A DNA stretch of 64,000 bases from Acuticoccus sp. MNP-M23. GTDB taxonomy: Bacteria; Pseudomonadota; Alphaproteobacteria; Rhizobiales; Amorphaceae. Under the pieces are notes generated by a model that saw nothing but the letters and a program-made list of their open reading frames with translations, searched no databases and had not been told where the DNA came from. The position numbers and the translations under genes were made by a program. The first letter of the stretch is position 1. Each line of letters opens with the position of its first letter. Positions 15,562-46,754 of this stretch are shown in pieces. The DNA is taken from contig NZ_CP133480.1 of NCBI RefSeq assembly GCF_031195445.1, positions 1,536,001-1,600,000 of the forward strand. The letters run 5' to 3'.

Positions 15562-16506
15562 TCAGCGGTCCGAGGCAGGGGCCACCGCAATCAGCCCGAA
15601 CACATAGGCAAGCACGGCCTTTTGCGCGTGGATGCGATTTTCCGCCTCGTCGAACACGGCCGACTGGGGGCCGTCCATCACCGCATCCGTCACTTCCTCG
15701 TTGCGGTGCGCGGGGAGGCAGTGGAGGAACACGGCGCCGGGCGCTGCCGCCGCCATCAGGTCATCGTTCACCTGGTAGGGCATGAGCAACTTCAGCCGGC
15801 GAGCCTCGTCCTCGTCGCCCATGGAGGCGAAGCAGTCGGCCGCCACAACGTCGGCGCCGTCCACCGCCTCGCGCGGGTCGGTGGAAACGAAAACGTCGGC
15901 CCCGGCGGCACGCGCGGCCTCCACCACATCGTCCGGCACGGCAAGCTCCGGCGGCGTCGCGATGCGCATGCGGAAGCCCAGCGGGCCGGCAGCCTCCAGG
16001 AAGGTTGCCGTCATGTTGTTGCCGTCGCCGACCCAGGCCACCGTGCGCGCCTCGATGGGGCCGAGGCGTTCCTCGATGGTGATGAGGTCCGCGATGATCT
16101 GGCACGGGTGCGAGCGGCGGGTAAGGCCGTTGATCACCGGCATCTCGGCATGGCGGGCGAACTCGGCGAGCGCGTCGTGGTCGAGCATGCGGATCATCAC
16201 CGCGTCGACGTAGCGGGACAGGACGCGCGCCGTATCCGGCATCGATTCGCCGCGGCCGAGCTGCATCTCGCTGCCATTGGCGACGATCGTGTCGCCGCCC
16301 ATTTCGCGCATGGCAAGGTCGAACGAGAAGCGCGTGCGGGTGGACGGCTTCTCGAACACCATGGCGAGCGTGCGCCCGGCGAGAACGTCGGTCCGGGGAC
16401 GGGGCTTGCGCCCCTCCCCCTTGATCCGGTGTGCCTCGTCCAGAATGGCGCGAAGGGCGCCCTGCGGCTGGCTCGCAAGGTCCAGGAAGTGGATCGGCTC
16501 GCTCAT
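15562..16506 (-). CDS. argF: Ornithine carbamoyltransferase
   Basis: Arginine biosynthesis: ornithine plus carbamoyl phosphate to citrulline. The 314-aa protein shows the carbamoyl-phosphate site [12 protein letters not shown], then [22 protein letters not shown] (HPxQ), [21 protein letters not shown] (SMG ornithine loop) and [13 protein letters not shown]. All key residues are present. ATG 16506 overlaps the argD stop as ATGA, so the two are coupled; the order argD-argF is common in alphaproteobacteria. Confidence 0.97.
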
Positions 16507-17699
16507 TGCGGGGCCGCCGCACTCTTGGCTTCCACCGCGGTTGCCGCACGGTCGAGCATCGCCACCGCCTCGCGGATGTCCGCCTCCGTTGCCACCAGCG
16601 GCGGCAGAAGGCGGGCGGTGTTTTCGCCGGCCGGGATGACGAGCAGCCCTTCGGCGCGGGCAGCATTGGTGATGTCCGCCACCGGCGCACGGCATTTGAC
16701 GCCGATCATCAGCCCCTCGCCGCGCACAGTCTCGAAAATGTCCGGATGGCTGTCCACCAGACCGGCAAGCGCCTGCTTGGCGTAAAGCCCGGTCTGCCGG
16801 ACCTTTTCAAGAAAGCCGTCCTCCAGAAGCACGTCGAGCACGGCATTGCCCGCCACGCACGCAAGACGGTTGCCGCCATAGGTGGTGCCGTGGGTGCCGG
16901 GCACCATGCCCGCCGCGGCATCCGCCGTGGCAAGGCACGCGCCGAGCGGGAAGCCGCCGCCGATGCCCTTGGCCGCCGCCAGAATGTCGGGCGTGACGCC
17001 GAGCGACTGATAGGCGAACAGCGTGCCGGTGCGCCCTGCACCCGTTTGCACCTCGTCAAACACCAGGAGAAGGCCGTGCTCGTCGCACAGCGCCCGCATC
17101 TCGGCCAGCACTTCGCGCGAGACCGGGCGGATGCCGCCCTCGCCCTGGATCGGCTCGACCATGATCGCCGCCGTTTCGGGCCCGATCAGTGCCTTGACCG
17201 CTTCAATGTCATCATACGGCGCCTGGTCGAACCCGGCGAGCGGTTCGCCGAAGCCTTCCAGATATTTGGGCGAGCCGCCGGCCGCGATGGTGCCGAGCGT
17301 CCGCCCGTGGAAGGCGCCCGCCATGGTGATGATGCGGGTGCGCTCCGGGTGGCCGTTGATGAACTGGTAGCGCCGCGCGGTCTTGATCGCGGCCTCGTTG
17401 GCCTCGGCGCCCGAGTTGCAGAAGAACACGCGCTCGGCAAACGTCTCCGCCACCAAGCGCTCGCCAAGGCGGGCCTGCTCCGGAATTTCAAAGAGGTTGG
17501 ACGTGTGCCACACGCCGGCGACGGCCTTCTGCATCTCCGCAACAAGGTGCGGATGCTGGTGGCCAAGGGCGGACACGGCGATGCCGGCGCCCATGTCGAG
17601 GTATCGTCGCCCGTCGGACCCGTGCAGCCAGACGCCCTCACCCGAATCAAACGAGACGGGAATACGGTTGTAGGTGGCGAACAACGCGGGTTCGGTCAT
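16503..17699 (-). CDS. argD: Acetylornithine aminotransferase
   Basis: PLP enzyme converting N-acetylglutamate semialdehyde to N-acetylornithine; often also acts on succinyl-diaminopimelate. It has 398 aa with [35 protein letters not shown] and the PLP lysine in [17 protein letters not shown] 17699 ([12 protein letters not shown]) is the family start; the frame is open to 17855 but those residues run into the gcrA upstream region. A 7-bp hairpin (17750-17756 with 17761-17767, GAAGACG/CGTCTTC) lies about 50 bases before the start, in the leader. Confidence 0.95.
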
Positions 17700-17797
17700 A
17701 ATTGTGTCGCGCTTGACGCGCTTCTCCACAGAGTTGGGGTATCTCGCCCGAAGACGAACGCGTCTTCTTCCCGATGGTTGGGGAAAAAGCAACTCTT

Positions 17798-17944
17798 GAG
17801 TCCATCGCGACTCGCTGACTCTAGACGCTGATTCGTCAATTCCTTTACGATTCATGAGGAACAGGAGCGCAAATGACGCGCTCCACAGCCTTCAGCCAAC
17901 ACGGTGGATTCCCGTGCCGTTTTCGGCGCGCCGCCTTTGGATTC
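17798..17944. promoter_or_regulatory. Cluster of seven GANTC methylation sites upstream of gcrA
   Basis: GANTC occurs at 17798, 17809, 17817, 17830, 17849, 17907 and 17940: seven sites in 147 bp, where chance would give about one in 256 bp. The first five fall within 56 bp. GANTC is the CcrM adenine methylation site, and GcrA acts at promoters carrying methylated GANTC. The cluster lies between argD and gcrA, ending 36 bases before the gcrA ATG, so it may control gcrA, argD or both. Confidence 0.75.
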
Positions 17945-17979
17945 CCTGTGGGCTGTTTGTGGACAGCAAGGGGACTGCG

Positions 17980-18516
17980 ATGAGCTGGACCGACGAGCGG
18001 ATCGAACAACTGCGCAAGCTCTGGGCAGAGGGGCACTCCGCGTCCCAGATCGCCGGGACGATGGGCGGTGTCACGCGCAATGCGGTGATCGGCAAGATCC
18101 ACCGGCTGGGTCTGTCGGGCCGCGTGAAGACGGCGCGCCCCGCAGCCCGTCGCGCCGCACCGGCGCCCGCCACCGTCTCGCCCGCCGCCGCAGCCGCTGC
18201 GGTCCGAACGCCAAAGCCCGCTGCACAACCGCGCGTGATGGCGGCCGGCGCTGCTGCGGTGAAGGTGGTCGAGCGGGAGGTTTTCGAGCCGGCCCCCGTA
18301 CCTCAGCATGTTGCCGAGGTGGTGCCCTTGCGCGGCGGAATCACGCTGACGGACCTCAGCGCCAGCACATGCCGCTGGCCCATCGGCGATCCGTCCGGCG
18401 ACAATTTCAGCTTCTGCGGTGCGCGGTCCGAACCTGGCGACACCTACTGCACCGCCCACGCCGACGTGGCATTCCCCGGCCGCACCAACAAGCCGCGCAA
18501 GCCCACCGGGCGCTGA
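17980..18516 (+). CDS. gcrA: Cell cycle regulator GcrA
   Basis: Alphaproteobacterial transcription factor that binds sigma-70 RNA polymerase and activates promoters with methylated GANTC sites, driving S-phase and division genes. The 178-aa protein opens with the diagnostic MSWTDERIEQLRKLWAEGHS, then SQIAGTMGGVTRNAVIGKIHRLG (DNA-binding helices). An Ala/Pro-rich linker of about 75 residues leads to the conserved C-terminal domain (LSASTCRWPIGDP, FCGA, YCTAHADVAF). ATG 17980 is preceded by AAGGGGA. Seven GANTC sites lie in its upstream region. It converges on phoB with 60 bases between stops. Confidence 0.96.
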   Translation: MSWTDERIEQLRKLWAEGHSASQIAGTMGGVTRNAVIGKIHRLGLSGRVKTARPAARRAAPAPATVSPAAAAAAVRTPKPAAQPRVMAAGAAAVKVVEREVFEPAPVPQHVAEVVPLRGGITLTDLSASTCRWPIGDPSGDNFSFCGARSEPGDTYCTAHADVAFPGRTNKPRKPTGR

Positions 18517-46400: not shown

Positions 46401-46754
46401 GGGATTCTCGTCAACGACTCGATCATTCTGGTAAAGCGGTTCGACGAGCGGCTTGGCGCCGGCGAGACCTTTGCCGACGCCGCAACGGGCGCCAGTGCGG
46501 ACAGGCTTCGCGCCGTGCTCCTCACCTCGCTCACCACCATCGGCGGCCTGATACCGCTGATCTTCGAGCGCTCCATGTCCGCGCAGTTCCTGTTGCCGAT
46601 GGCGATTACCATCGTCTTCGGGCTGGCGCTGGCGACGGTTCTCGTGCTGATTCTCGTTCCCACGCTCCTCGGGATCGGCTTCGATATCGGCCGCGTGTTC
46701 AGCGCACTGATCGGCCGCCGCCGCGCTTCTGCCACACCGGCAAATCCGCGCTAG
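43404..46754 (+). CDS. RND efflux permease with extra mid-protein membrane segment
   Basis: Inner-membrane proton antiporter of the RND superfamily, 1116 aa. Hallmarks are RHPNAANLLMALM at TM1, the AcrB-like porter domains, LFALIMMLGVIVDDAIVVGEH at TM4 with the Asp pair, VTTIAAFAPIF, and in the second half VGLLGLAGILVNDSIIL and TSLTTIGGLIPLI. Between TM6 (ECFLILPGHL, residue about 478) and the next amphipathic helix (residue about 575) there are about 90 residues with two additional hydrophobic stretches (TVFAGIGAVLIGGAVTAA and LFVATVAIIAGLALAGL), longer than usual. Paired with the adaptor upstream; no outer-membrane factor is adjacent. Confidence 0.92.
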   Translation: MKAFISLFTRHPNAANLLMALMLVLGAFSLANLTTRFWPPTDLAQVEISIAWPGASAEDVSTNILDAVEPAVRFLTGVDSIRSVAREGSAFTSLNFAPGTDMQKALGDVEQAVAGLTTLPEDAESPVIQTDQLRDPVAKIGVAGPFPESALQVFARRIRDDLLDRGLDRITIGGMRNREILVDAREHDLLRHSLTTADIADAIRANTLDRPAGVLTGVVDRQVRVAAGAETPAAIAAMIVKALPSGEALTVGDVANVSEGFARGTVAGLRGGNPAIELSVERAQSADALASDAVVRAYLDDVRPTLPQSLTVQLYDVQTDKLWDRISILIRNGWQGLAIVLIVLFLFLRANIAFWVALGIPVAFAGTLAVMLATGQSINMISLFALIMMLGVIVDDAIVVGEHTDTLASRGLPPAEAAERGAMEMLVPVLASSVTTIAAFAPIFMMRDIIGQMMDAMPLVGISIIIASLVECFLILPGHLAHAGRTGSGLNVGRFFRLTVFAGIGAVLIGGAVTAARWLATAEPAAREALLSLPPLFVATVAIIAGLALAGLVERRLARRSGVSAHGTTHRLRSGFDRRFNALRDGPFTRAVRLTYAYRYTTLAVAVGSVMVVVYGLYLGGGHVRFVFFPSPEAEFVQARVEFHAGTPRERVLEGVYAVEAALKESETALAPDGETVVSDTYALIGRAGRDRGDNLATLRVQLAPSEDRTVRTPALVRAWKKAVPDIAGIKRVSIAERRGGPPGRDVDMRLTGADPSVMKAAATEAMAAMAALPGVTAVTDNLPLGKPEVALSLTARGKALGFTAESIGAQVRGAFEGDIARRLAIGDDEVPIRVRQRTGNAPVPLEDLFLRAPGGEFVPLTEVASLAERNTFSVIVRRDGLTTIAIFADVDTAIATPQEVTALIAETIVPGMEARYGVRASFDGRDRERRRSFEDLRQGAYLALIMIYLTLAFVFGSYWRPVVIMLIIPFGAVGAILGHVVLGMNLTIVSFVGLLGLAGILVNDSIILVKRFDERLGAGETFADAATGASADRLRAVLLTSLTTIGGLIPLIFERSMSAQFLLPMAITIVFGLALATVLVLILVPTLLGIGFDIGRVFSALIGRRRASATPANPR

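Follow-up and report, generated by a model that had tools for sequence, protein, structure and literature searches.

The window (the whole stretch of 64,000 nucleotides analysed here, positions 1,536,001 to 1,600,000 of contig NZ_CP133480.1 of Acuticoccus sp. MNP-M23) carries gcrA and, divergent from it, argD. The region between the two genes contains seven GANTC sites, which are listed here with the genes and the other elements discussed; offsets are counted from a predicted transcription start.

16503..17699, minus strand: argD (PF00202), divergent from gcrA
17778..17788, no strand: TTGGGGAAAAA block, a conserved upstream element that contains a GGGGAAA-type word
17798..17802, no strand: GANTC site 1, GAGTC, at about -60; upstream array; in 7/7 genus orthologues
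17809..17813, no strand: GANTC site 2, GACTC, at about -49; upstream array; its other strand fits YGAKTCG
17817..17821, no strand: GANTC site 3, GACTC, at about -41; abuts the putative -35; first of the order-wide 13-bp pair
17822..17827, plus strand: putative -35, TAGACG, from alignment on the GANTC pair (order consensus TTGNNN); 18 bp to the -10
17830..17834, no strand: GANTC site 4, GATTC, at about -28; between the putative -35 and -10; second of the pair
17846..17851, plus strand: putative -10, TACGAT (order pattern TANNNT)
17849..17853, no strand: GANTC site 5, GATTC, at about -9; overlaps the putative -10; in 7/7 genus loci
17907..17911, no strand: GANTC site 6, GATTC, at about +50, in the predicted 5' untranslated region
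17940..17944, no strand: GANTC site 7, GATTC, at about +83; 40 bp upstream of the gcrA start codon
17958..17966, minus strand: the sole site matching the DnaA motif of Caulobacter (CTGTCCACA), located 14-22 bp upstream of the gcrA start codon
17980..18516, plus strand: gcrA, 178 aa (PF07750, E 1.2e-46; scores under the NF050816 curated cut-off)

The GcrA protein shows 60-62% identity, in the best segment, to those of A. kalidii, A. mangrovi and A. yangtzensis. Residues 1-172 align to GcrA chain 7ye1_G, from a solved structure, and residues 1-45 to another GcrA chain, 5yiu_A, which is 49 residues long and which we take to be the methyl-DNA binding domain of GcrA. The GcrA-family protein with a methyl-DNA binding domain that belongs to a GcrA-sigma70 promoter is present on this basis (PF07750 and the 5yiu_A alignment). 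The genome also encodes CcrM, the methyltransferase that belongs to a promoter of the Agrobacterium tumefaciens type, as shown by a RAMA domain above cut-off and a 370-aa ORF whose best NCBIfam model is NF050803 CcrM (E 2.9e-170; 565.8 bits, below the curated cut-off of 830). Since 287 of 297 genomes of the order Hyphomicrobiales have a RAMA match above cut-off, there was little to correlate between loss of the array and loss of CcrM, and this correlation was set aside. A divergent argD lies beside gcrA at 126 of 151 loci (redundant loci and paralogues counted), and the argD-proximal stretch in the window, 17700-17797, contains no GANTC.

An earlier sequence-only reading of this DNA placed GANTC sites at 17798, 17809, 17817, 17830, 17849, 17907 and 17940, and all of these positions are exact. 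It also held that this number far exceeds expectation in 147 bp, which is borne out by the counts. The 64-kb window is poor in GANTC (81 sites found, 259.6 expected from dinucleotide shuffles), and 1208 sites (0.956/kb) were counted in a 1.264-Mb sample of the same genome that includes the window. At this rate, which ignores that GANTC is commoner between genes, at least seven sites in 147 bp have a Poisson probability of about 2e-10. In a 1.664-Mb sample, about one third of the genome, the gcrA upstream region was the densest stretch of 147 bp, with seven sites, followed by an independent cluster of five; GANTC is over-represented upstream of gcrA, as for the A. tumefaciens type of promoter. 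The further remark that the array is denser than known ones is true to a slight degree, as two of 30 Sinorhizobium-family loci (best 30 of 81 genomes) also have seven sites, in 250 bp. The spacings are irregular, as had been noted, yet conserved. A simple repeat was rejected as the origin of the array, as a repeat scan gave only short inexact repeats.

Conservation was examined among eight genomes of the Acuticoccus-like genus, that of MNP-M23 included, which yielded seven orthologous loci (L001-L007, with L001 being the window); genome G006 yielded only the paralogue-like L008 and is therefore outside the seven. The spacings of 11, 8, 13 and 19 that separate sites 1-5 (17798-17853) are kept in four of the six other orthologues, and the remaining two are without one site. 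Sites 1, 2, 4 and 5 occupy identical relative positions in all seven loci and site 3 is found in five, having been lost in L003 and L005; the spacings are identical wherever the sites exist. Conservation in close relatives, on which the sequence-only reading had made its proposal depend, was therefore found for sites 1-5. Site 6 has no fixed position among these loci and possibly originated by drift, and site 7 lies at -40 or -41 from the gcrA start codon in four of the seven (L001, L002, L003 and L005). An extension of the argD coding sequence across the array was rejected as a candidate. While the argD frame is open across the array in the window and in L003, L005 and L007, a stop codon ends it ahead of the array in L002 and within the array in L004 and L006, and because the frame is closed in these three of seven loci the array is not conserved coding sequence.

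For the order as a whole, 162 loci were assembled (32 from the first searches, the best 80 of 416, and 50 representing about one per genus). Seven were dropped, namely the paralogue-like L008 and L009 and five that were too short, and the 155 left were collapsed to 125 non-redundant loci. The retained loci L042, L044 and L047 look paralogue-like; these gcrA-like extra copies (Sinorhizobium, Roseibium), as well as L009 from genus member G003, do not have the array. Because 291 of 297 genomes of the order gave a gcrA match, while the loci set consists of picks, distant gcrA copies are under-sampled.

A count of GANTC in gcrA upstream regions across Hyphomicrobiales, as the sequence-only reading had proposed, showed that GANTC-GANTC distances around the -35 peak sharply at 13 bp, with such a pair in 58 of the 125 sampled loci (5000 random placements, which leave shared descent outside the model, gave 4.9 on average and never more than 14). 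When the loci are aligned on this pair, their consensus is GACTC-TTGNNN-NN-GAGTC-N11-TANNNT, which corresponds to a -35 and a -10 with an 18-bp spacer; TANNNT is found at the consensus -10 position in 46 of 59 pair loci. The arrangement GANTC-N11-TANNNT occurs in 72/125 sampled loci, and most other offsets have single-digit counts. The exceptions are offsets 6, 24 and 19 (56, 51 and 39 loci), which we attribute to the same sites, measured either from the other GANTC or to an overlapping TATTGT, and offsets 29 and 37 (10 and 11 loci). A GANTC over the -10 was found in only three of the 59 pair loci, all of them representatives of the Acuticoccus-like genus. Further downstream, a GANTC 30-65 bp before a conserved Trp codon is present in 83/125 loci (10 and 21 in control zones), indicating that site 7 has order-wide counterparts. 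At the spacer site and at both upstream positions GA-TC is constant and only the central N of GANTC varies, as expected where the CcrM mark is what matters; site 2, for example, reads GACTC or GAGTC across the seven genus loci. The first site of the pair is GACTC in 81 of 86 loci, so N is constrained there too, which counts against the methylation reading.

The arrangement is not universal. None of the three core arrangements counted is present in 35 of the 125 loci, and the Methylobacterium loci L075, L089 and L090 are free of GANTC over 300 bp even though a CcrM-type RAMA domain is encoded in their genomes, which suggests that a methylation input is not required everywhere. The genome of the fourth GANTC-free locus, L101, has no RAMA match. 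The family of G294 was taken as that of Sinorhizobium because its GcrA proteins reach 88% identity to the one of S. psoraleae; of its 81 genomes the best 30 were used, with redundant loci kept. Among these 30 loci, 27 have the 13-bp pair, the sites thus having the same core-promoter placement in relatives of A. tumefaciens; 24 of these 27 also carry a site at offset -19 or -18 relative to the pair, and 17/30 have both the -19 and the -9 site. Outside the order the promoter arrangement is rare. In a class-level set (142 genomes searched, 83 matched, best 30 taken as loci, redundancy kept) 29 loci were new and 27 were examined, L225 and L239 being left out; 26 of the 27 lie outside the order, L226 belonging to the same order, and the pair was found in 2/27 (L226 and L248) and the spacer arrangement in 1/27 (L228). 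L228, one of those outside the order, retains the GANTC of the spacer and the -10 about 150 bp before gcrA, without the site before the -35, and perhaps represents an older state.

A plain sigma70 scan of the gcrA upstream region gave no promoter match, and the promoter was instead derived from the order alignment. The position of its -10 implies a start at about 17858, 122 nt before the gcrA ATG. In S. meliloti, the mapped gcrA start is at -122 from the AUG (PMC4414408), and the gcrA locus of S. psoraleae, which carries the array (L260), has a -10 at -133 to -128, as counted manually on the sequence. The geometry in the window agrees with both, and the array appears, from alignment, to sit on the core promoter of gcrA. 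In S. meliloti a CtrA motif lies over the gcrA start (PMC3616915). TTAA is absent from 17690-17990 in the window and CtrA control of its gcrA promoter was therefore rejected.

A gcrA promoter rich in GANTC is already in print for A. tumefaciens, where six sites lie in the 250 bp upstream of the gene (PMC11514494, 2024). According to that report, methylation makes the promoter less active, in A. tumefaciens itself as well as in E. coli provided with active CcrM, overexpression of ccrM lowers gcrA mRNA, the methylation effect needs no alphaproteobacterial regulator, and passage of the replication fork is proposed to activate gcrA (PMC11514494). The same gene thus has a similar number of GANTC upstream of its start codon in Acuticoccus. 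A. tumefaciens itself is known here by description of its site number, and the frame of the array was compared with Sinorhizobium-family genomes and S. psoraleae. These relatives have an array of -19, -9, 0 and +13 on the gcrA promoter, as against -19, -8, 0, +13 and +32 in the window, so that the upstream spacing is 11, 8, 13 in Acuticoccus and 10, 9, 13 in the Sinorhizobium family; in contrast to these relatives, Acuticoccus has a further GANTC overlapping the -10. A survey from 2010 counted GANTC per promoter and held that methylation control could not be derived from such counts (PMC2877005). In the openly available full-text articles searched, as far as their excerpts go, no account was found of the 13-bp pair, its register with the -35 and -10 or its order-wide spread.

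Taking into consideration that the array is real, conserved and placed on the predicted promoter, and that its counterpart in A. tumefaciens is methylation-sensitive, the gcrA promoter is likely a methylation-timed switch. The explanation that we favour, and consider somewhat probable, is that the core promoter of gcrA receives its methylation input through the array, and that fork passage relieves repression by CcrM and gives an early burst of gcrA. Building on the observed sites, phasing, conservation and CcrM and GcrA genes, and on deduced promoter geometry and origin position, the mechanism could proceed as follows. CcrM would methylate the array sites late in the cycle, and the housekeeping polymerase would use the promoter less when methyl groups are present next to the -35, within the spacer and, in the Acuticoccus genus, within the -10. 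All sites would then become hemimethylated as the fork passes, which would relieve the repression and lead to a burst of gcrA in early S phase. That the effect has the same sign and cause in Acuticoccus as in A. tumefaciens, and what role each site plays, are presumed by analogy; Caulobacter promoters with a GANTC in the spacer are activated, ctrA P1 via GcrA, and sign and cause might therefore differ in Acuticoccus. The absence of site 3, which adjoins the -35, from two of the seven genus loci counts against this explanation.

The position of gcrA could add to such a switch. The cumulative GC-skew minimum of contig C1, from sampled stretches, is at about 1.66 Mb, and hemE, which we take to be an origin marker in this group, is at 1.645 Mb, while gcrA is at 1.554 Mb. 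We infer a replication origin near hemE and the skew minimum, about 90-105 kb from gcrA. This placement is slightly weakened by the location of dnaA elsewhere, at 2.35 Mb, and by the lack of a match to the single DnaA-box pattern tried in the 20 kb holding hemE. Compared with A. tumefaciens, in which the distance is 0.43 Mb, gcrA would be closer to the origin, so that hemimethylation would begin almost at initiation and the promoter would switch almost immediately after it.

A wider proposal, which we put forward more tentatively and with something short of even confidence, is that in many Hyphomicrobiales the gcrA promoter is a dedicated fork sensor with its own grammar, of which Acuticoccus has the steepest form, and that CcrM and GcrA make up a delayed negative loop. 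The grammar would comprise a GANTC against the -35, a second one 13 bp on in the spacer, upstream sites added in helical steps, and the TGGGGAAAA element in either of two positions separated by one turn. In Acuticoccus the extra mark inside the -10, and several methyl marks acting together, would make the switch steeper, and every replication round would reset the loop. The cell cycle of Alphaproteobacteria is driven by GcrA and CcrM. An order-wide geometry, combined with a start mapped in one member and a methylation effect found in another, extends the report on one species to a rule that can be tested, namely which site, at what distance from the -35 and -10, carries the methylation effect, and the Acuticoccus-like genus, with its GANTC inside the -10, is a natural extreme for it.

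The sequence-only reading had gone further and proposed a methylation-timed autoregulatory switch. Its timing part is supported by the A. tumefaciens analogy and by conservation. Its suggestion that argD might be timed by the array as well gained no support from the analysis. Autoregulation, by which GcrA with sigma70 would recognise the methylated -28 site and raise or lower transcription of its own gene in a methylation-timed feedback, seems rather unlikely to us as the explanation of the array. In Caulobacter crescentus ctrA P1 a GANTC is likewise placed at -28/-29, between the -35 and -10 of a promoter of a cell-cycle regulator, and this promoter is activated when hemimethylated, by GcrA; Caulobacter promoters that carry a GANTC in the -35/-10 spacer are switched on at 40-60 min (PMC4287350). 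GcrA protects fully methylated ctrA P1 from -35 to -10 (PMC3667746). ctrA P1, however, belongs to another gene, has one reported site and is GcrA-bound, whereas the gcrA promoter of Acuticoccus is known from its sequence and has five sites on or just above the core promoter. The extended GcrA activation motif, YGAKTCG or YGAKTCK, is credited to Haakonsen et al. 2015 (PMC7987155, PMC8725594). It is fitted by the -28 site of the window (TGATTCG, at 17830) and by 17809, two of the seven window sites, and the -28 site fits YGAKTCG on either strand in six of the seven genus loci. By contrast, the spacer site conserved across the order shows no preference for the motif, fitting YGAKTCK in 22/72 order loci, much like the background of 320/1127 GANTC in a sample of the MNP-M23 genome. 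Moreover, the methylation effect seen for A. tumefaciens appears in E. coli, and in the main texts of the GcrA papers searched no passage was found that names the gcrA promoter as a GcrA target. GcrA autoregulation is therefore possible in Acuticoccus but does not seem to be what the order conserves.

Less probable still is that another protein binds the repeated GA-TC words as an array, at roughly helical intervals (about -19, -9 and 0), methylation being incidental. This would account for a GANTC 7-12 bp upstream of the pair in 13/59 pair loci and 16-24 bp upstream in 7/59, both spread over several families, for the joint -19 and -9 sites among the best 30 of 81 Sinorhizobium-family genomes, and for a GGGGAAA block that falls into two position classes about one helical turn apart. 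However, five 6-bp control windows gave 3, 8, 3, 0 and 0 of 59 loci, the one at -50 to -45 thus reaching 8/59, and the variable central base and four constant flanking bases of the upstream sites fit a methylation target better, as does the CcrM effect demonstrated in A. tumefaciens (PMC11514494). Finally, a by-product of GANTC being excluded from coding sequence, tolerated between genes and clustered by drift is a highly improbable explanation which, although the window is depleted in GANTC and GANTC is commoner between genes in Alphaproteobacteria (PMC3973325), leaves unexplained the densest stretch in the 1.664-Mb sample and, strongly so for sites 1-5, the exact, promoter-aligned spacing conserved in the genus and across families.

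Among other upstream elements, GGGGAAA is present upstream of gcrA in 67 of 125 sampled loci of the order (a Markov model gives 4.5 on average and 8 at most). Of the 59 pair loci, 29 have it no more than 60 bp ahead of the pair, without exception at either 26-28 or 37-38 bp. The TTGGGGAAAAA block of the window could serve argD or gcrA, and TGGGGAAAA occurs four times in 1.264 Mb of the same genome. The Caulobacter DnaA motif, in the form given in PMC2877005, is found in 18/125 order loci (Markov mean 3.1, maximum 9), and a palindrome, ACGA[CG]ATnTCGT, lies upstream of gcrA in 49/125 (Markov 0). In the window, GGAGCGC-N7-GCGCTCC at 17864-17884, directly after the predicted start, was seen by eye and is absent from the repeat-scan list. 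A second 13-bp GANTC pair in the window, at 46403-46420, has no -10 at the distance found for gcrA. The second densest GANTC cluster in the genome sample has five sites in 126 bp (C1:4460201-4460326, L165:201-326), and other clusters, of four sites each, are at C1:4295908, 2561552 and 1817967.
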